DNA of 64,000 nt, taken from Pseudooceanicola antarcticus. Lineage in GTDB: Bacteria > Pseudomonadota > Alphaproteobacteria > Rhodobacterales > Rhodobacteraceae. The first letter of the stretch is position 1, and every line of letters begins with the position of its first letter. The stretch covers positions 496,001-560,000 of the forward strand of contig NZ_OBEA01000001.1 of the NCBI RefSeq assembly GCF_900215355.1, in the 5' to 3' direction. Below, in pieces: positions 9,277-64,000 of the stretch. The translations under genes and the position numbers were made by a program. The notes beneath the pieces were generated by a model that saw only the letters and a list, made by a program, of their open reading frames with translations, had not been told where the DNA came from and searched no databases.

Positions 9277-9958
9277 GATTGTTCTTGATACCGAGACCAC
9301 CGGCTTCGAGCCCGAACAGGGCGACCGCCTGGTCGAGATCGGCGGGGTCGAGCTTTATAACCACGTCCCCACGGGCGAGACCTACCACGTCTATATCAAC
9401 CCCGAACGCGAAGTGCCCGAAGAGGCCTTCAAGGTGCACGGGCTGAACTACGAATTCCTGCGCGACAAGCCGGTGTTCCGCGACGTGGCGCAGGGCTTCC
9501 TGGATTTCGTCGGTGATGCGAAGCTGGTGATCCACAACGCCGCCTTCGACATGAAATTCCTCAACGCCGAGCTGGGCTGGCTGGGTCTGCCGCAGCTGCC
9601 CTGGGAACAGGCGCTGGATACGCTGGCCATCGCGCGGAAGAAATTCCCCGGCTCGCCGGCGTCGCTGGATGCGCTTTGCCGACGCTTCGGCATCGACAAC
9701 TCGGCCCGGACGCTGCACGGCGCGCTGCTCGACTCCGAGATCCTGGCCGAGGTCTACCTCGAGCTCATCGGCGGTCGGCAGCCGGGCCTGGTGCTGGCCT
9801 CGGGCCGCCGTGGCGGCGGTACGGCGCAAGAGGACGAGGACTGGCGCCCCCGGCCGCGTCCCAACCCCCTGCCCTCGCGGATCACCGACGAGGAGCGCGC
9901 GGCGCATGAGGCCTTCGTCGAGAAGATGGGGGAAAGCGCGCTCTGGAAGCGGTTCTGA
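9269..9958 (+). CDS. dnaQ: DNA polymerase III epsilon subunit (3'-5' proofreading exonuclease)
   Basis: The 229-residue DEDDh exonuclease that proofreads for the replicative polymerase. Exo I is VLDTETTG, with the metal-binding D7 and E9. Exo II is VIHNAAFDMKFLN, with its aspartate near residue 98. Exo III epsilon is TLHGALLDSE, with the catalytic histidine and aspartate near residues 152-157. The C-terminal tail after residue 180 is charged and proline-rich and should hold the contact to the polymerase alpha subunit. The ATG overlaps the end of coaE by 8 bp. Confidence 0.96.
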   Translation: MREIVLDTETTGFEPEQGDRLVEIGGVELYNHVPTGETYHVYINPEREVPEEAFKVHGLNYEFLRDKPVFRDVAQGFLDFVGDAKLVIHNAAFDMKFLNAELGWLGLPQLPWEQALDTLAIARKKFPGSPASLDALCRRFGIDNSARTLHGALLDSEILAEVYLELIGGRQPGLVLASGRRGGGTAQEDEDWRPRPRPNPLPSRITDEERAAHEAFVEKMGESALWKRF

Positions 9959-9964
9959 CACGGA

Positions 9965-9992
9965 AAAGGCGCGTACCGCAGCACGCGCCTTT
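9965..9992 (+). terminator. Hairpin terminator after dnaQ
   Basis: AAAGGCGCGT and ACGCGCCTTT form a perfect 10-bp stem with an 8-nt loop just after the dnaQ stop codon, between convergent dnaQ and secB. The A and T flanks suit either strand, so it may serve both genes. Confidence 0.7.
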
Positions 9993-10036
9993 CCCTTGAA
10001 GCCTGGCAGGGCGGGATTTCACCCCGCCACCTGCGC

Positions 10037-10540
10037 TCAGTTGGTCAGCGTATCCGCCGGAGCGGCCTGGGCCGCGGCGCGACGCTGGATCTCGGCGCGG
10101 TAGAGCTGCACGAAGTCGATGGTCTCCAGGTTCAGCGGCGGGAAGCCACCGTCGCGGGTCACGTCCGACACGATGCGACGGGCGAAGGGGAACAGCATGC
10201 GGGGGCATTCGATCAGCAGGAAGGGGTGGATCTGGTCGTCCGGCACACCTTCGATGTTGAACAGGCCGACGTATTCCAGCTCCATCAGGAACAGGGCGTC
10301 GCCGCTTTCCTTGTTGTTCGAGGTGATGGTCAGCTTCAGCAGCACTTCGTACTGGTTGGCCGCTTCACGCTTCTTGGCGTCCAGCGCCACCTGGACCTTC
10401 ATGTCCGGCTGCACGTTGCCCGACGCGGGCTTGCGGGCCAGGATGTTCTCGAAGGACATGTCCCGGATGTACTGGGACAGGACGTTCATCTTCACTTGCG
10501 GCTGTTGCTGCGGGGCAGCGCCATTGGTTTCCTCGGCCAT
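10037..10540 (-). CDS. secB: Protein-export chaperone SecB
   Basis: A 167-residue tetrameric chaperone that keeps precursors unfolded and hands them to SecA. The conserved core is present: QYIRDMSFENILA near residue 22, the beta-sheet region with LLKLTIT, and LLIECPRMLFPFARRIVSDV near residue 106. This start is chosen because GAGGAGG lies 7-8 nt upstream; an ATG six codons earlier has no such signal. The C-terminal tail is alanine-rich, as in alphaproteobacterial SecB. Location beside dnaQ on the opposite strand is conserved in the class. Confidence 0.96.
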   Translation of the reverse strand: MAEETNGAAPQQQPQVKMNVLSQYIRDMSFENILARKPASGNVQPDMKVQVALDAKKREAANQYEVLLKLTITSNNKESGDALFLMELEYVGLFNIEGVPDDQIHPFLLIECPRMLFPFARRIVSDVTRDGGFPPLNLETIDFVQLYRAEIQRRAAAQAAPADTLTN

Positions 10541-57629: not shown

Positions 57630-57705
57630 GCCGCTGTAGCTCAGCTGGTAGAGCACGTCATTCGTAATGATGGGGTCGGGGGTTCGAGTCCCTTCAGCGG
57701 CACCA
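57630..57705 (+). tRNA. tRNA-Thr (anticodon CGT)
   Basis: A complete 76-nt cloverleaf. The acceptor arm GCCGCTG pairs with CAGCGGC. The D arm GCTC-GAGC, the anticodon stem CGTCA/TGATG with loop TTCGTAA (anticodon CGT, codon ACG) and the T loop TTCGAGT are present. CCA is encoded. No transfer-related element sits next to its 3' end. Confidence 0.97.
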
Positions 57706-57827: not shown

Positions 57828-58727
57828 ATGTTCCGAGCCCCCAAGGATTACGTCTATCTCGATGCGGTGGCCTCTGCCGGGTCGATCCGCAAGGCGGCCG
57901 CGCGGCTGCATGTGGCCTCGACCTCTCTGAACCGCAAGATCCTGGAAATCGAGGAAGAACTGGGCATGCCCCTGTTCGAGCGCCTGCCGCGCGGGGTACG
58001 GCTGACCTCGGCCGGAGAGGTCATCCTGACCGCGATCCGGCGCAATATCTCGGACGTGGAGACCGCCAATGCCCAGATCCGCCAGCTGCGCGGGCTGGTG
58101 CGGGGCAATGTCTCGATCGCGGTGGCGCATTCGGTGGCCAACGACTTCATCCAGGACGCGATCACCAGCTTCCAGGAGCATCACCCCGGCGTGCATTTCA
58201 AGCTGCTGGTCGGGGCCACCAGCGACCTCGTCCGCGCCCTGATGAGCGATGAGACCGACCTGCTGCTGGCCCATGATCCGGCGCCCGGCAAGGAGCTGGA
58301 CGAGATCGCCGTGGTGCCGCAGCCGCTCTTTGCGATGATGCGCCCCGATCATCCGCTGGCCAACCGCAGCAAGTTGCGGCTCAGCGATTGCCAGCCCTAT
58401 CCGCTGGCCATGGGGCCGCGCTCCTTCGGTGGGCGGGCGCTGCTGGAGGCGGTGATCGCGCGGCACCGGCTGGCGCTGAACGTGGTGCTCGAGGCCAATA
58501 CGATGCGGGCGCTGAAAGCCTATGCGCAGCGCACCGATGCGATCTGCTTCCAGTTCGAGGTGGGCACGCGGGAAGAGGCCGTGACGGGCGCGCTGAAGGC
58601 GATCCCGCTGGTCGACCCCGAGCTGCGCGGCGGCCGGCTGGTCTTTGCCGCCCGCAAGGACCGCAACCTGCCGCTGCCGACCATGAGCTTCATCGAAACG
58701 GTGAAGCAGTCGATGTCCCAGATCTGA
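57828..58727 (+). CDS. LysR family transcriptional regulator
   Basis: A 299-residue LysR regulator. The helix-turn-helix spans residues 10-45 (LDAVASAGSIRKAAARLHVA, then a recognition helix with STSLNRKILEIEEELGMPLF), followed by an effector domain with IAVAHSVANDFIQDAITSFQ and DLLLAHDPAPGK. It lies 115 bp upstream of the amidohydrolase operon in the same direction, so it is the likely regulator of that operon, with the ring compound or a breakdown product as effector. The target assignment is positional. Confidence 0.9.
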   Translation: MFRAPKDYVYLDAVASAGSIRKAAARLHVASTSLNRKILEIEEELGMPLFERLPRGVRLTSAGEVILTAIRRNISDVETANAQIRQLRGLVRGNVSIAVAHSVANDFIQDAITSFQEHHPGVHFKLLVGATSDLVRALMSDETDLLLAHDPAPGKELDEIAVVPQPLFAMMRPDHPLANRSKLRLSDCQPYPLAMGPRSFGGRALLEAVIARHRLALNVVLEANTMRALKAYAQRTDAICFQFEVGTREEAVTGALKAIPLVDPELRGGRLVFAARKDRNLPLPTMSFIETVKQSMSQI

Positions 58728-58842
58728 GGCGCTCGCAGTTCGAGTGCACACATTTTGCTCTCACCCATGGAGGAAATTGGTTCTATTCGCACTGCAGCAT
58801 TCTGCGCCAGTCTGGCGGCAACTGACCAGGAGTGAGGCTGCC

Positions 58843-59976
58843 GTGCAGGCCAAGGTGTACAGACTTTCGATGGCGCATCCCGGAGACCTTTCGGCGCTCG
58901 CAACCCTGCTTGCCGCAGGAGAGGTGCAGGCGCAGGAGGTGGTCGCCGTCATCGGCAAGACCGAGGGAAACGGCGGCGTGAATGACTTCACCCGTGGGTA
59001 TTTCACCGACCGGCTGATGAATTTGTTGGCAAGCTACCTGAACGAGGCGCCGGAAGAGATCGCCCGCAAGGTGCCCTGCATTCTGTCGGGCGGCACCGAG
59101 GGCGTGCTGTCGCCGCATTACACCGTGCTTTGCCGCAGTGCCGCGAAGGCCGCTACGAGCGAGAGCAAACCCGCACTGGCCATCGGTGCCTCCTGCTCGA
59201 TCGACATGCCGTTCGAGCTGGTCGGCACCCGTGGCCATGCGCAGATGGTGGCCGAGACCGTGCGCGCCGCAATGGAGGATGCCGGGATCACGGACCCCGC
59301 CGATCTGCACTTCGTTCAGGTCAAGGCGCCCTGCCTGACCTCGGACCGGATCGAGGCCCTGCGCGCCGAAGGCAAGACCGTGCCCGCGCCCAATGCCTCT
59401 GTCTCGATGGCCCGCGCTCGGGCGGCTGGGGCCCTGGGCGTTGCCATGGCGACCGGAGAGATCCCCTCCGAGCAGGTCTGCGACGACAGCTTCCTTGCCG
59501 ATTTCAACCTCTACAGCACCTGCGCCAGCATCTCTTCCGGCGTCGAGGTGCTGTGCAACGAGGTGGTGGTGCTGGGCATGAGCCCCGCGTGGTCCGGCCC
59601 GCTGCGCATTGCCCATCGGGCGATGCAGGATGCCATCGACCTGCCTTCGGTGCGCGGGGTCTTCAGCGATCTGGGCTTTGCCGAGGGCGCACAGGTCGCC
59701 GAGGCCGAGCGGGCGCGTCTCAGGGCGATCTTCGTGAAATGCGAACCGGATCAGAGCGGGCAGATCCACGGCGCGCGGCATACCATGCTGAACGACACGG
59801 ATATCGACCCGCAGCGGCATATCCGCGGCGCGGTCGGCGGGCTGGTCGCCGGGGTGGCGGGCGAGACGCGGATCTTCGTCTCGGGCGGGGCCGAACACCA
59901 GGGGCCCTTCGGCGGAGGGCTGATCGCCGTGATCGCAGAGACCGCGACGCGGCAGACGGAAGGACAGGACAGATGA
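58843..59976 (+). CDS. Ring-opening amidohydrolase, cyanuric acid amidohydrolase/barbiturase family
   Basis: A 377-residue protein of the AtzD/TrzD/barbiturase family (three-domain Toblerone fold), which hydrolyses cyclic imides such as cyanuric or barbituric acid. All three Lys-Ser pairs are visible at family spacing: K39/S82 (VIGKTEGNGG; ILSGGTEGVLSPH), K161/S232 (HFVQVKAPCL; CASISSGVE) and K299/S347 (IFVKCEPD; VSGGAEHQGPFGGG). RHTMLNDTDID is also conserved. I chose the GTG at 58843, with AGGAG upstream. It is first in a tight operon and overlaps the FAD monooxygenase by 4 bp. Which ring it opens cannot be read from the sequence. Confidence 0.9.
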   Translation: MQAKVYRLSMAHPGDLSALATLLAAGEVQAQEVVAVIGKTEGNGGVNDFTRGYFTDRLMNLLASYLNEAPEEIARKVPCILSGGTEGVLSPHYTVLCRSAAKAATSESKPALAIGASCSIDMPFELVGTRGHAQMVAETVRAAMEDAGITDPADLHFVQVKAPCLTSDRIEALRAEGKTVPAPNASVSMARARAAGALGVAMATGEIPSEQVCDDSFLADFNLYSTCASISSGVEVLCNEVVVLGMSPAWSGPLRIAHRAMQDAIDLPSVRGVFSDLGFAEGAQVAEAERARLRAIFVKCEPDQSGQIHGARHTMLNDTDIDPQRHIRGAVGGLVAGVAGETRIFVSGGAEHQGPFGGGLIAVIAETATRQTEGQDR

Positions 59977-61184
59977 AGATTGCCATCATCGGCGCCGGCG
60001 TGGCCGGCAGCATCATGGCGCGCGGCCTGGCGGATGTGCCGGGGCTCGAGGTGCATTGCCTGGAACGGATCGCGCCTGGCGAACACGCGGAATCCGGCAC
60101 CGGCCTGAACATCGGGCCGAACGCCGTGCAGGCGCTGCAGCAGACCGATCCCGAGCTGGCGCAGCGCGTCGCCGAGACCTCCTTCGGCTGGCGCAGCTGG
60201 CGGGTCTCGACCATGGGCGGGCAGGAGCTGATGAACCTGAAGCTGAAGGACATCGCCCCGGTGGACGGCTGGCGTCTGCGTTGGGCCGAGCTCTATCGCG
60301 TGCTGCGCGAGGCGGCCGGCGACAGCATCCGCTACAGCTGCACCATCGACGCGGTCACGCCGAAGCTCGACGGGTCGGGGCGTCTCGATATCGCTTTCAC
60401 CGAGGGCGGCCGCCGCAAGGCGCTGACCGATGTGGATCTGCTGGTCGCGGCGGACGGGCGTTTCTCGCAGGTGCGGACGCAGTTCCGTGGCCCGGTCAAT
60501 GCACGGCAGGTGGGGGTCGCCATCTTCCGGCTGCTGGTGCCCGACACCACCGGCGGCCTGATCGACGACTACGAGCAATGGTTCAACGGTCCCAACCGCC
60601 TGCTGGGCTACCGCGTGCCCGAGAACAGCATCTACATGTCCGGCACCTTCCCGATCCCCGTCGGCGGCGAGATCCCCGAAGAGATGAAGACCCCCGAGGC
60701 CCTGCGCCACGCCTTCACCCCCGCCGATGGCCAGCTCAGCGATCAGGGTCGCTGGCTGGTCGACCTGGTCTCTCACCCGGCGGTCGAGCTGCACTGGGCC
60801 CGGCTGCAGGAAAGCCCGCTCTGCCTCCGTGAAGAGGGGGTGAACCTCCTCTACCTGGGCGACAGCTCCAACGGCATGGTGCCGACCCTGGGCCAGGGCG
60901 CGACCCAGGCGGTGGAAAGCACCTGTGCCGCGGTCGAGATCATCCGCGCCCTGGCCGCAGCGGGGCAGCATGACCCGGCGCTCTGGCTGCAGGCGATCAC
61001 CCGTGCCCGCCAGGACCGGCTGCGTTTCGTGATGGATTTCTCGATGGAGGCCAGCGACACGCTGCTTGCGGGCGCCGATCCGGTGGCCGGCACGGCGAAG
61101 AAGACCGAGGCCCCGTTCCAGGCCAGCCTGGCGCGGCTCTACAACGACTACGGTGTTCCCGAGGGGCTTCTGGAGACCGTCTGA
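59973..61184 (+). CDS. FAD-dependent monooxygenase (aromatic-ring hydroxylase type)
   Basis: A 403-residue class A flavoprotein monooxygenase. The FAD dinucleotide fold IAIIGAGVAGSIMARGL is at residues 3-19 with the ribose acid in HCLER. VDLLVAADGRFSQVR is the DG motif near residue 160, and LLYLGDSSNGMVPTLGQGA (near residue 293) is the GD motif. Relatives include urate hydroxylase HpxO and 6-hydroxynicotinate 3-monooxygenase, which hydroxylate N-heterocycles using NAD(P)H. Its ATG overlaps the stop codon of the ring-opening amidohydrolase, so hydroxylation before hydrolytic ring opening is the natural inference. Substrate unknown. Confidence 0.9.
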   Translation: MKIAIIGAGVAGSIMARGLADVPGLEVHCLERIAPGEHAESGTGLNIGPNAVQALQQTDPELAQRVAETSFGWRSWRVSTMGGQELMNLKLKDIAPVDGWRLRWAELYRVLREAAGDSIRYSCTIDAVTPKLDGSGRLDIAFTEGGRRKALTDVDLLVAADGRFSQVRTQFRGPVNARQVGVAIFRLLVPDTTGGLIDDYEQWFNGPNRLLGYRVPENSIYMSGTFPIPVGGEIPEEMKTPEALRHAFTPADGQLSDQGRWLVDLVSHPAVELHWARLQESPLCLREEGVNLLYLGDSSNGMVPTLGQGATQAVESTCAAVEIIRALAAAGQHDPALWLQAITRARQDRLRFVMDFSMEASDTLLAGADPVAGTAKKTEAPFQASLARLYNDYGVPEGLLETV

Positions 61185-61243
61185 CAGCCCCTCATTCCTC
61201 CCCCAATAAAACCAAGAAACACTCACCAACAGGAGTATCCCCA

Positions 61244-62227
61244 ATGACTGACATTCGTCGCAAGATCCTCTCGGGCCTCGGCCAGCTGGGCCTCGGCCTG
61301 GCGCTGTCGACCGGCCTTGCCTTCTCTGCCGCCGCTGCCGACAAGGTGACCATCGGCGTCTTCGTCGCAGGTTCCGGCCTGCCCTATTACGTCGCCGAGA
61401 AGCGCGGCTACTTCGCCGAAGCCGACCTTGAGGTCGAGCCCGTCTTCATCGGCACCCACCCCCTGATCGTGCAGGCCATGGTGAGCGGCGACATCGACGC
61501 CGCCTCGAACCTGGTCACGCTGGAAGGTGCCAATATCAACGCGCTGCGCCCCGGCACGATGAAGTTCATCGCCCTCTACGGCCAGAACAGCGAATACGTG
61601 ATGGAGCAGTTCGTGGTGAAGCCCGACAGCACCGCCACCACCATCGCCGATCTGAAGGGCGCCAACCTGTTCTCGGCTCCCGGCCCGGCCAACCTTGGCG
61701 CGGCCAAGGCCAGCCTGATCGCTTCGGGCCTCGGCGAGGATGAGTTCGCCATCCAGGAGCAGGGCATGGGCAACCATATCGGCGCCATGCAGAGCGGCAA
61801 TTTCGACGGTGGCTTCACGCTTGAAGCGCTGGCTTCGATCATGGTCGACCGCGGCATCGCCAAGCGGCTGGAGACCGGCGTGATCGCCAAGTACCTGATG
61901 AAGGACGAAACCGCCGAGGCCTATGCCGCCGGTGCCGCGATCTCGGGCAAGCTGATGGAAGAGCGCCCCGACGTGGCCAAGCGCTTTGCCGCGGCCTGGG
62001 CCAAGGCCGTCAAGGACGCCAACGAGGACCCGACCGCCCGTGAGCTGCTGGTCGAGATGAAGGTGCCCGAGAACCTCACCGAAACCGTGCCGCTGGCGCA
62101 TTACAACATGGTCTCGGACATGAGCGAAGACGAGCTGGCCGACTTCCAGACCTTCCTCGATATCGGCGTCGACCTGGGCGTCGTCGCCAAGCCCATCGCC
62201 GTGGCCGATGTCGCGGAGGCGATGTGA
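61244..62227 (+). CDS. ABC transporter substrate-binding protein, NitT/TauT (SsuA/NMT1) type
   Basis: A 327-residue periplasmic binding protein. A signal peptide of about 32 residues (GLGLALSTGLAFSAAAA) precedes the mature domain. [31 protein letters not shown] (residues 36-66) is the characteristic SsuA/NMT1 opening, and GDIDAASNLVTLEGANI lines the cleft. Family ligands include sulfonates, nitrate and pyrimidine precursors or other small heterocycles. It starts 59 bp after the monooxygenase and overlaps the ATPase gene by GTGA. The ligand is inferred to be the ring compound degraded by the operon. Confidence 0.9.
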   Translation: MTDIRRKILSGLGQLGLGLALSTGLAFSAAAADKVTIGVFVAGSGLPYYVAEKRGYFAEADLEVEPVFIGTHPLIVQAMVSGDIDAASNLVTLEGANINALRPGTMKFIALYGQNSEYVMEQFVVKPDSTATTIADLKGANLFSAPGPANLGAAKASLIASGLGEDEFAIQEQGMGNHIGAMQSGNFDGGFTLEALASIMVDRGIAKRLETGVIAKYLMKDETAEAYAAGAAISGKLMEERPDVAKRFAAAWAKAVKDANEDPTARELLVEMKVPENLTETVPLAHYNMVSDMSEDELADFQTFLDIGVDLGVVAKPIAVADVAEAM

Positions 62228-63114
62228 ACTTGACCCGGCCCATTCCCCCCAAGGCCGATGGCGCCGACCTGTCCCCCCCTGCGGAGATCTCCGCGGGGGG
62301 GGATGCGCCCGCCGCATCGGGTGATCTTGCCGATCGCCTGCGCTGGTTCGCGCCCGGCACCCACATCACCATTCGCGGCCTGAACAAGACCTTCGCCGAC
62401 GGCACCGTGCTTTACCGCGATTTCGACCTCGACCTGCCGCGCGGCAAGGTGGTGTCGATCTTCGGCCCCAATGGCTGCGGCAAGTCCACGCTGATCAACA
62501 TGATCTCGGGCATCCTGGATTACGATTCGGGGCAGATCCTGTTCGACGGCAAGACGGCGCGCGAGACCAAGATCGGCTATGTCTTCCAGAACTACCGCGA
62601 AGCCGGCTTTCCCTGGCTGCGGGCCATCGACAATATCCGCTACCCGCTGAAGTTCCTGAAGCTGTCGCAGGCCGAAAAGGACGCCCGCGTCGAAAAGCTG
62701 CTGGCCAGCTTCAATGTCTCGATCGACCTGAACCGCTACCCCTACGAGCTGTCGGGCGGCCAGCAGCAGCTGGTCTCGATCATGCGGGCGCTGGTCATCG
62801 AACCCGAGGTGCTGTTCCTCGACGAGCCCTTCTCGGCGCTCGACTACGAGATGACCCTCTTCCTGCGCGACAAGCTGCAGTCGGTGCTGACCGAGATGCA
62901 GATCACCACGCTGCTGGTGTCCCATGACCTCGACGAGGCGGTGGAGCTGGCCGACGAGGTGCTGTTGCTGACCCGCAAGCCGACGTCCGTCGCCGCCCGT
63001 ATCCCCTTCACCGCGCCGCGTCCGCGCAACGCCGAGATCACCGTCACCCCGGAGTTCATCGACGTGAAGGCCCGGTCGCTGGAGATCTTCCAGAGAGAAG
63101 TGCGCAAGACATGA
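62224..63114 (+). CDS. ABC transporter ATP-binding protein, NitT/TauT type
   Basis: A 296-residue ABC ATPase. Walker A is FGPNGCGKST (about residues 80-89), the signature LSGGQQQ is near 177, Walker B VLFLDEPFSALD near 197, and the H-loop histidine is in LLVSHDLDEA. The first 45 residues form an unusual proline- and alanine-rich extension before the normal start of the domain (HITIRGLNKTFADG). The extension's DNA includes a 32-bp perfect-type palindrome. The start is the GTG that overlaps the binding-protein stop codon; no better in-frame start was found downstream of the palindrome. Confidence 0.92.
   Translation: MNLTRPIPPKADGADLSPPAEISAGGDAPAASGDLADRLRWFAPGTHITIRGLNKTFADGTVLYRDFDLDLPRGKVVSIFGPNGCGKSTLINMISGILDYDSGQILFDGKTARETKIGYVFQNYREAGFPWLRAIDNIRYPLKFLKLSQAEKDARVEKLLASFNVSIDLNRYPYELSGGQQQLVSIMRALVIEPEVLFLDEPFSALDYEMTLFLRDKLQSVLTEMQITTLLVSHDLDEAVELADEVLLLTRKPTSVAARIPFTAPRPRNAEITVTPEFIDVKARSLEIFQREVRKT
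62272..62303. repeat. Long palindrome inside the 5' end of the ATPase gene
   Basis: A 32-bp inverted repeat without loop: TCCCCCCCTGCGGAGA on the left and its complement on the right, centred on AGATCT. One T-G pair is the only mismatch. In RNA this is a very stable hairpin 45 bp after the binding-protein stop codon. Confidence 0.8.
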
Positions 63115-63890
63115 GTGACAAACTGACCAAGTACCTGCCCCGCATGGGGTGGATTCAGCCGGTGCTGGGCGCGCTCGCCCTGATCCTGCTCTGGGCCTTC
63201 GCCCATGTCGCCCAGCTGGTGGACCCGGTGCTGTTGCCCTCTCCGTTGGAGTCCTGGAACGCCTTCGTCGAGGGCATGACCGAGGGCACGCTGGGCCATG
63301 ACTTCTGGCGCACCATCGTGCGCACCATGCTGTCCTTCGCCATCGCGACGCTGATCGCCGTGCCTCTCGGGGTGGCGCTTGGATCTTCCAACAAGCTCTA
63401 TCGTTCGGTCGAGTTCCTGATCGACTTCTTCCGCTCGACCCCGGCCTCGGCCATGTTCCCGCTGTTCCTGGTCTTCTTCGGCATCGGTGAAGAGGCGAAG
63501 ATCGCCGTGGCGGCCTTCGGTGCGGCGCTGATCATCCTGTTCAACACCGCCTATGGGGTGATGAACGCCCGGCAGCTGCGCCAGCTCGCGGCGCGGGTGA
63601 TGGGGGCTTCCCGGACACGTATCCTCTGGGATGTGACGATCTGGGAGAGCCTGCCGCAGACCTTCATCGGGCTGCGCTCGGGGGTCTCCATGGCGCTGGT
63701 CATCGTCATCGTGGCCGAGATGTTCATCGGCTCGTCCGACGGTCTGGGCAAGCGGATCATCGACGCGCAGATGATCTTCAACATGCCCGAGATGTATGCC
63801 TCGATCTTCGCGGCGGGGGCCCTGGGCTATGTGATGAACATGCTCTTCACCCTGATCGAGGCGCGGTTTGTCCACTGGGGCGGAAAGTAG
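63111..63890 (+). CDS. ABC transporter permease, NitT/TauT type
   Basis: A 259-residue permease with six membrane segments and the BPD_transp_1 domain. The cytoplasmic EAA loop reads VMGASRTRILWDVTIWESLP near residue 164, and RSTPASAMFPLFLVFFGIGEEAKI near residue 104 is typical of the SsuC/TauC group. It overlaps the ATPase gene by ATGA and completes the importer. The following gene, a second amidohydrolase, starts 5 bp after its stop codon. Confidence 0.93.
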   Translation: MSDKLTKYLPRMGWIQPVLGALALILLWAFAHVAQLVDPVLLPSPLESWNAFVEGMTEGTLGHDFWRTIVRTMLSFAIATLIAVPLGVALGSSNKLYRSVEFLIDFFRSTPASAMFPLFLVFFGIGEEAKIAVAAFGAALIILFNTAYGVMNARQLRQLAARVMGASRTRILWDVTIWESLPQTFIGLRSGVSMALVIVIVAEMFIGSSDGLGKRIIDAQMIFNMPEMYASIFAAGALGYVMNMLFTLIEARFVHWGGK

Positions 63891-63895
63891 AGATC

Positions 63896-64000
63896 ATGGA
63901 AATCGGTGTGTTCAAGCTCGGCATGGCCTCGCCTGCCGATGTGTCGGAGTTGCAGGAGCTGATCGCGGGCGGCGGGCTCGATCCCGCCCAGGTGGTCGCC
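63896..64000 (+). CDS. Second ring-opening amidohydrolase, cyanuric acid amidohydrolase/barbiturase family (5' part)
   Basis: The 35 residues in the window align with the N-terminus of the 58.8-kb amidohydrolase: VFKLGMASPADVSELQELI and GLDPAQVVA correspond to VYRLSMAHPGDLSALATLL and AQEVVAV just before the first catalytic lysine motif. Identity is about 40%, so it is a divergent paralogue and not a duplication artefact. It begins 5 bp after the permease. The rest lies beyond the window. Assignment rests on a short stretch but in strong context. Confidence 0.72.
   Translation, partial: MEIGVFKLGMASPADVSELQELIAGGGLDPAQVVA

Follow-up and report, generated by a model that had tools for sequence, protein, structure and literature searches.

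A candidate N-heterocycle catabolic operon in Pseudooceanicola antarcticus that joins a flavin monooxygenase to two divergent AtzD-family amidohydrolases

The stretch of Pseudooceanicola antarcticus DNA analysed here (the window; 64,000 nucleotides, bases 496001-560000 of the 931-kb contig NZ_OBEA01000001.1, with sequence past its end also read) closes with a LysR-type regulator gene followed by tightly packed genes for an amidohydrolase of the AtzD/barbiturase (Toblerone) family (AHR1), a flavin adenine dinucleotide (FAD)-dependent flavin monooxygenase (FMO), an SsuABC-like importer, a second Toblerone-family amidohydrolase (AHR2) and an amidase (AMI; Table 1). On balance, we think that these genes probably constitute an N-heterocycle catabolic operon of a kind undescribed in the literature searched, serving import, hydroxylation by FMO, imide hydrolysis by the amidohydrolases and a finishing cut by the amidase. 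FMO is regularly linked to an AtzD-family gene across bacteria, and at specificity and entry-gate positions neither amidohydrolase conforms to barbiturase or to the cyanurate hydrolases known so far.

The monooxygenase and its linkage to AtzD-family genes

The search model combined the window FMO with a second one, 47–48% identical, which neighbours a relative of AHR1 in another family of the same class. A collection of genomes representing 84,980 species, one apiece, was scanned with this FMO alignment alone, and the best 80 of 106 relatives were kept. An AtzD-family gene was present in 70 of these 80 FMO loci by phmmer, lying within 100 bp of FMO in 41 and within 2 kb in 65; this count includes a 92-residue fragment (L142) and two loci in which over-long open reading frames (ORFs) distort the gaps (L177 and L180). 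The corresponding counts were 71/80 by blastp and 69/80 at a threshold of at least 90 bits. Contig ends truncate some of the loci, 11 are shorter than 20 kb, and gene counts use fixed bit thresholds. The two genes share a strand in 56 of the 70 loci, with the amidase between them in many. Among 385 genomes sampled evenly from the class, only 22 had an AtzD-family gene (10/394 for the family and 14/398 for the phylum), and the association with FMO is therefore not due to chance. The FMO–AHR1 pair is conserved across Alpha-, Beta- and Gammaproteobacteria, and the distance matrices of the two proteins correlate with r = 0.88 over 57 loci (0/2000 permutations as high), a value that relatedness inflates.

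The other partners recur to differing degrees: relatives were found for a VOC-fold protein in 55 of the 80 loci, the periplasmic binding protein (SBP) in 49, the transporter ATPase and permease in 46 each, AMI in 40, a Mo-hydroxylase large subunit in 34, LysR in 23 and a PuuE-like protein in 13 (thresholds of at least 200 bits for LysR, 150 for SBP, 250 for the ATPase and 200 for the permease). Tropicimonas sediminicola (L104) carries the whole operon in the same order, with proteins 72–89% identical and a LysR gene that reads as two ORFs; for AHR1, AHR2, FMO and the amidase of strain DSM 29339 the identities are 72–81%. Several loci have further genes of their own. In many Bradyrhizobium loci, Mo-hydroxylase genes precede AHR1–FMO. 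The G594 cluster (L063:1615-2727, 9381-10478) has a Rieske-type oxygenase next to FMO, a 2-oxoglutarate–Fe(II) oxygenase, an amidohydrolase with Thr at position 321 and a BMP-type importer, and in the Rhizobium BK313 and Devosia variants (L158:6554-7750, L220:11580-12893) a short-chain dehydrogenase gene follows the amidase, with a BhcA-like aminotransferase nearby (439 of 650 bits in L158; by eye in L220).

FMO itself was placed above cut-off by no NCBIfam model. Its AlphaFold model (predicted local distance difference test (pLDDT) score 95.1) has the fold of group A flavoprotein hydroxylases, that is, a fold like that of p-hydroxybenzoate hydroxylase, and a Foldseek search of the PDB gave 878 matches with E no higher than 0.001; among the 50 that were listed are 6-hydroxynicotinate 3-monooxygenase (NicC), HpxO, 3-hydroxybenzoate 6-hydroxylase and p-hydroxybenzoate hydroxylase. 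NicC is the nearest solved relative by profile (94.9 bits, against 75.5 for HpxO) and also the first Foldseek match, at about 20% identity; comparison with HpxO holding urate gave template modelling (TM) scores of 0.78/0.81. The original prediction spoke of an ‘HpxO-like’ flavin monooxygenase: the flavin monooxygenase stands, whereas the likeness to HpxO is distant (52 bits against a cut-off of 500 for the HpxO model NF033623). Across 49 sequences, the family has motifs of its own, DDYxQW being invariant and HWARxQ nearly so. A plasmid origin of the family was considered and rejected: 72,556 plasmid records held no orthologue at E 1e-30, and the 20 matches at 1e-5 were weak, with less than 30% identity in the ten listed.

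Divergence of the two amidohydrolases

AHR1 and AHR2 are 45% identical, and both match PF09663 far above its cut-off of 25 bits. The alignment shows the three Ser–Lys dyads and Arg54, Arg195 and Arg325 intact in each, so that the fold and the three dyads originally predicted for the first amidohydrolase are confirmed and extend to the second. In AtzD, positions 195, 321, 325, 345 and 346 separate cyanurate hydrolases (Arg, Thr, Arg, Gly, Gly) from barbiturase (Asn, His, Lys, Val, Ser or Ala), and 321 is a proposed specificity residue, Thr321 and Tyr188 being located at one of the two cavities that lead into the active site (PMC3758960). In TrzD, Cys45, Tyr188 and Thr326 are proposed to control substrate entry (PMC5366886); the numbering of these gate residues was checked against the alignment columns used here, in which TrzD Thr326 is position 321. 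At the five signature positions, AHR1 reads R-Q-R-G-G and AHR2 R-E-R-G-G. Neither therefore has the full cyanurate signature Arg195/Thr321/Arg325/Gly345/Gly346, and neither has the barbiturase signature Asn195/His321/Lys325/Val345/Ser-or-Ala346. Gate residues Cys45 and Tyr188 (TrzD numbering) are likewise changed in AHR1.

This divergence recurs in the relatives, for which residue counts are given by how the sequences were fetched, since naming them AHR1-type by residue 321 would be circular. Position 321 in the 73 sequences from FMO loci is Gln in 66, Glu in five and Thr in one (the second gene in L177); the remaining sequence is the L142 fragment. The 47 sequences fetched by amidohydrolase family alone (46 stretches) have Thr in 33, His in eight, Asp in two, and Gln, Glu, Gly and Phe in one each; apart from their lone Gln321 member (L063), none had an FMO in the stretch read. 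The residue is Thr in 5/5 reference cyanurate hydrolases and His in barbiturase. Totals including the window are 68 Gln321 and seven Glu321 sequences. In the former, Gly or Leu replaces the gate Cys and Tyr188 occurs in none; in the latter, Lys191 (for Met) and Asn188 (for Tyr) occur in 7/7. Exceptions at the conserved arginines are Val for Arg195 in L169 and L178, and Cys for Arg54 in L150. A quick tree search over 126 sequences, with SH-aLRT supports, gathered the Glu321 sequences into one clade (support 99) and separated the Gln321 sequences from the rest by a single branch with weaker support (74), consistent with one change. The over-long ORF L177_8939 was dropped from the residue table and tree, and L142 from the tree and group counts.

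A result that would have told against the original prediction was that both amidohydrolases cluster with known cyanurate hydrolases beside an unrelated monooxygenase. The monooxygenase is regularly linked to the amidohydrolase; the clustering is mixed, in that database models do not separate either protein from cyanurate hydrolases whereas the tree puts each in a group of its own. Moreover, at least 10 of 36 FMO-locus genomes searched (hand-picked from the 80; not every match was typed) hold a Thr321 gene besides the Gln321 gene, and the Gln321 enzyme is therefore probably not the cyanurate hydrolase.

Other members of the family are more divergent still. G520 (L076, L088) encodes two AtzD-family proteins with branch lengths of 2.9–3.6, one of them without the second dyad serine, and has its FMO on another contig. 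L085, L086, L087, L228, L229, L230 and L232 have altered dyad residues (Lys42 changed to Gln, for instance, or Ser233 to Phe or Val) or unusual residues at the signature positions, and their proteins are likely to have other functions.

The distribution of AHR2 was compared with that of the VOC-fold protein in a non-random sample of 39 genomes (the 36 hand-picked FMO genomes plus G000, G594 and G1026). AHR2 was found in eight, none of which encodes the VOC-fold protein at an E-value of 1e-80 or below, as against 24 of the remaining 31; seven genomes have neither. The hypergeometric probability of this exclusion is 1e-4, or 2.7e-4 with two Methylobacterium collapsed, kinship being ignored. One protein from a genome with the VOC-fold gene (L230, in G1121), among five further matches typed afterwards, has Glu at 321 but is divergent, being 33% identical to AHR2 and without one dyad serine and other AHR2 marks, and was left uncounted. 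AHR2 and the VOC-fold protein may thus serve the same step as alternatives. The invariant His14, His62, His85 and Glu131 of the latter suggest a metal site; as a clue to the chemistry it was dropped, since it has only general glyoxalase/FosA-like matches (model pLDDT 80).

A proposed pathway and its alternatives

The family matches establish the enzyme classes, from which we infer an order of steps and a type of substrate. LysR would sense the compound or an intermediate, and the SsuABC-like importer would take up an oxo-N-heterocycle. FMO would then hydroxylate an electron-rich ring carbon with NAD(P)H and O2, after which AHR1 would open an imide bond of the ring by a Ser–Lys mechanism. AHR2 could carry out a second or alternative hydrolytic step, which many other loci may entrust to the VOC-fold protein. 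AMI would cut the remaining linear amide or ureide, releasing ammonia and leaving a carbon skeleton that could enter central metabolism. The conserved arginines at the three lobes would fit a ring substituted at positions 2, 4 and 6. A pyrimidine- or pyridine-type ring is favoured because FMO is near NicC and HpxO, a locus of the same class (L071) pairs a barbiturase-type gene with related neighbours, and Mo-hydroxylase genes occur in the Bradyrhizobium loci; a pyrimidine trione (barbiturate-like, converted by FMO to 5-hydroxybarbiturate) or a hydroxypyridine imide are the candidate substrate classes. The original prediction of an imported N-heterocycle that is hydroxylated and then opened is upheld as to a catabolic operon with its own importer, the regular linkage of FMO to an amidohydrolase, and the lack of a full cyanurate or barbiturate signature in either AHR; the order of the two reactions stays a proposal.

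More tentatively, and with rather less confidence than for the operon itself, the data may point to a widespread, undescribed aerobic pathway that degrades N-heterocycles by joining hydroxylation by a flavoenzyme to ring opening by Toblerone-fold enzymes, with two new substrate classes (Gln321 and Glu321) and with AHR2 and the VOC-fold protein interchangeable for one step. If so, the automatic name ‘cyanuric acid amidohydrolase’ would be wrong for a large clade, and the gene set would point to a compound on which many bacteria feed. As genes of one clade belong to a conserved set together with those for a flavin hydroxylase, an amidase and an importer, the proposal could be tested with a handful of purified enzymes.

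Several observations weigh against the proposed pathway. Both AHRs exceed the cut-off (360 bits) of the NCBIfam equivalog NF052395, ‘cyanuric acid amidohydrolase’, AHR1 with 471 and AHR2 with 438 bits. This model also matches 36/36 scanned Gln321 or Glu321 proteins (a chosen set, a match meaning E up to 0.001 and not a score above cut-off), and it probably over-names the AtzD family. Arg195, Arg325, Gly345 and Gly346 are the same in both AHRs as in cyanurate hydrolases, and the ring pocket itself is, as judged from its residues, little changed. The gate Cys is also Gly in 8/34 Thr321 sequences and in barbiturase, so that only position 321 is diagnostic. Ten of the 80 FMO loci are without a scored AtzD-family gene: two are short contigs (L173, L175), four have the importer and the VOC-fold gene (L155, L171, L174, L183), one the VOC-fold gene (L181), one LysR (L163) and two nothing else (L154, L179). 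In nine of these genomes that were searched, six have one family gene elsewhere, in every case Thr321, L175 has a fragment, and L163 and L171 have none; the sole family gene of the six being of the Thr321 type, FMO evidently does not require a Gln321 partner in order to occur. Co-occurrence across whole genomes adds little: of the 3/385 genomes of the class in which FMO was found, each has AtzD-family genes, but the search model was built with sequences from G000 and G594, and in G520 FMO lies on a separate contig that has no family gene. A hypergeometric value of 1.6e-4 for this co-occurrence was withdrawn as evidence, two of the three FMO genomes having supplied model sequences. G1026 lacks AHR1 yet has AHR2, the amidase and the importer, and the 31 kb read there show no FMO relative; the operon may therefore consist of two modules, with AHR2 in one of its own. 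A promoter-like site was looked for and none was found. Finally, the substrate, the enzyme activities and any growth on the compound are predictions from gene content.

Two of the alternatives are substrate versions of the proposed pathway, and their probabilities overlap with it. According to the first, which is rather unlikely in its specific form, the operon is a variant of oxidative pyrimidine degradation: a uracil- or thymine-like compound would be degraded by AHRs acting as barbiturases for a substituted barbiturate, with the amidase as ureidomalonase and FMO making or hydroxylating the barbiturate. The L071 locus argues for this, in that its barbiturase-type gene (502 bits to PDB 5hwe) is accompanied by an importer 44–61% identical to that of the window, an amidase (32%), a different FAD monooxygenase and a cytosine-deaminase-like gene, as does the Gly gate residue shared with barbiturase. 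Mo-hydroxylases are the enzyme class that converts uracil to barbiturate, and their large subunit recurs at FMO loci, as counted above; by contrast, no relative was found within 20 kb starting at the upstream side of the present operon (L003), and the barbiturase residues Asn195, His321, Lys325 and Val345 are absent from AHR1 and AHR2.

A hydroxypyridine route is less likely again. It assumes that a Mo-hydroxylase or deaminase encoded elsewhere supplies a dihydroxypyridine (a glutaconimide tautomer), to which FMO would add a third hydroxyl before an AHR released an oxo-dicarboxylic monoamide and the amidase a tricarboxylic acid cycle acid and ammonia. Such a route would require only enzymes conserved in the cluster, and the position of NicC as nearest profile relative and first Foldseek match of FMO speaks for it; however, that relationship amounts to only about 20% identity, and the importer relatives in L071 adjoin a barbiturase-type gene. 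Ring opening of pyridine imides is not known from any AtzD-family enzyme.

An ordinary cyanuric acid operon, in which AHR1 and AHR2 would be cyanurate hydrolases, the amidase a biuret hydrolase and FMO a passenger or a triazine N-dealkylase, is improbable. The NCBIfam scores and the conserved pocket arginines and glycines favour it, but Thr321 is replaced in AHR1, AHR2 and their clades, the FMO linkage recurs in 70/80 loci, AMI reaches 143.8 bits against the 425.75 of the AtzE model TIGR02715, no allophanate hydrolase scores over cut-off in the window's own genome, and the cyanurate cluster of R. leguminosarum 3841 has quite a different gene set. Least probable is a purine-type pathway, in which FMO would be an HpxO-style hydroxylase of a urate-like compound and an AHR would replace the hydroxyisourate-opening step: the good structural match to HpxO with urate and the PuuE-like allantoinase genes in 13/80 loci are outweighed by the HpxO model score, by the lone PuuE-like protein scored, which falls slightly under the PuuE cut-off (401.6 of 424.6 bits), and by 60 gene clusters in which no hydroxyisourate hydrolase or OHCU decarboxylase was recognised by eye, no model search having been made.

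Operon layout, surroundings and known systems

The ORF coordinates and family matches confirm the arrangement first predicted, a LysR gene and then closely packed amidohydrolase, FAD monooxygenase and SsuABC-type importer genes and the start of a second amidohydrolase (Table 1). AHR1 overlaps FMO (by ATGA), as do SBP the ATPase and the ATPase the permease; the remaining gaps are 59 bp (FMO–SBP), 5 bp (permease–AHR2), 1 bp (AHR2–AMI) and 115 bp (LysR–AHR1), and LysR is probably the regulator of the AHR1–AMI operon. The open frame of AHR1 begins at 58744, and the GTG at 58843 is the preferred start because AGGAG directly precedes it. Reading beyond 64 kb, as the original prediction had suggested in search of further amidases, completed AHR2 and revealed AMI, an amidase-signature gene, directly after it. 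That no further amidase was in view was an effect of the window's edge, and the absence of biuret hydrolase or ureidomalonase genes, which had been taken to argue against known pathways, loses its force with AMI next in line, although AMI scores far below the AtzE and allophanate hydrolase cut-offs. SBP matches the NMT1 family but scores 39.3 bits against the 163.5 of SsuA_fam TIGR01728, and sulfonate specificity is not implied.

Table 1 Genes of the candidate operon, in positions of the window
Feature	Position	Strand	Basis
LysR-type regulator	57828..58727	+	Pfam HTH_1 and LysR_substrate
AHR1, AtzD/barbiturase (Toblerone) family amidohydrolase, Gln321 class	58843..59976	+	PF09663, 429.7 bits
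FMO, class A FAD monooxygenase, unnamed subfamily	59973..61184	+	Profile and fold matches
SBP, NMT1/SsuA-like periplasmic binding protein	61244..62227	+	Pfam NMT1, 55.2 bits (cut-off 20.5)
ABC transporter ATPase	62224..63114	+	Pfam ABC_tran, 111.4 bits
ABC transporter permease	63111..63890	+	Pfam BPD_transp_1, 69.3 bits
AHR2, second Toblerone-family amidohydrolase, Glu321 class	63896..64954 (63896..64000 inside window; L003:6896-7954)	+	PF09663, 460.5 bits (full protein)
AMI, amidase-signature gene, outside window	64956-66290		Pfam Amidase, 258.1 bits

Upstream of the operon lies tRNA-Thr(CGT), at 57630-57705. Homology with a genome of the same genus (G192:C2, L227) extends through this tRNA gene and stops beyond it, at the point where the operon starts (13 kb beyond were compared). 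A genomic island at tRNA-Thr was rejected: no exact repeat of at least 14 bases of the tRNA 3' end was found within 26 kb downstream, and the G+C fraction is unremarkable (0.676, beside 0.669 for the window). The homology breakpoint stands; the island claim does not. About 4.5 kb past the operon lies a nitrate-assimilation cluster like NasT/NasS/NrtABC (L003:13822-20000; named by eye), and the other genes downstream are unrelated.

A second gene set was seen in L071, L102, L074 and L103, comprising a barbiturase-type gene, an amidase, an SsuABC-like importer related to the present one, an FAD monooxygenase (of the PRK07236 type in L074), a cytosine-deaminase-like gene and HyuA/HyuB; the L074 set seems to have been disrupted, since only remnants of the importer are left and genes that by eye resemble transposases lie among the others.

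In the open-access titles and abstracts listed by the literature searches, no operon combining an AtzD-family gene with an FAD monooxygenase was found described. The known riboflavin/lumichrome route was set aside, as word searches of PMC12746152 gave no barbiturase or cyanurate term. Among known systems, AHR1 and AHR2 share with AtzD/TrzD and the R. leguminosarum 3841 cluster the PF09663 family, the three Ser–Lys dyads, Arg54/195/325 and Gly345/346, and differ from AtzD/TrzD in the replacement of Thr321 and the gate residues. In R. leguminosarum 3841, atzD is surrounded by a BMP-type importer, a formamidase and cysteine hydrolases, and no FAD monooxygenase or amidase-signature gene is annotated in 17 kb (the PLSDB gene tables being incomplete). 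AMI belongs to the same Pfam Amidase family as AtzE and AtzF and falls far below the NCBIfam cut-offs for both AtzE (143.8 of 425.8 bits) and allophanate hydrolase (114.2 of 511 bits). FMO has the same fold as HpxO and NicC, from which it is set apart by identities of about 19–20%, an HpxO model score far under cut-off and its own family motifs. Barbiturase (PDB 5hwe) is of the same family as the AHRs and likewise has Gly at the gate, and its relative in the same-class L071 locus shares importer relatives and an amidase with the present operon; the locus differs in its FAD monooxygenase, and the Asn195/His321/Lys325/Val345 signature of barbiturase is found in neither AHR1 nor AHR2.

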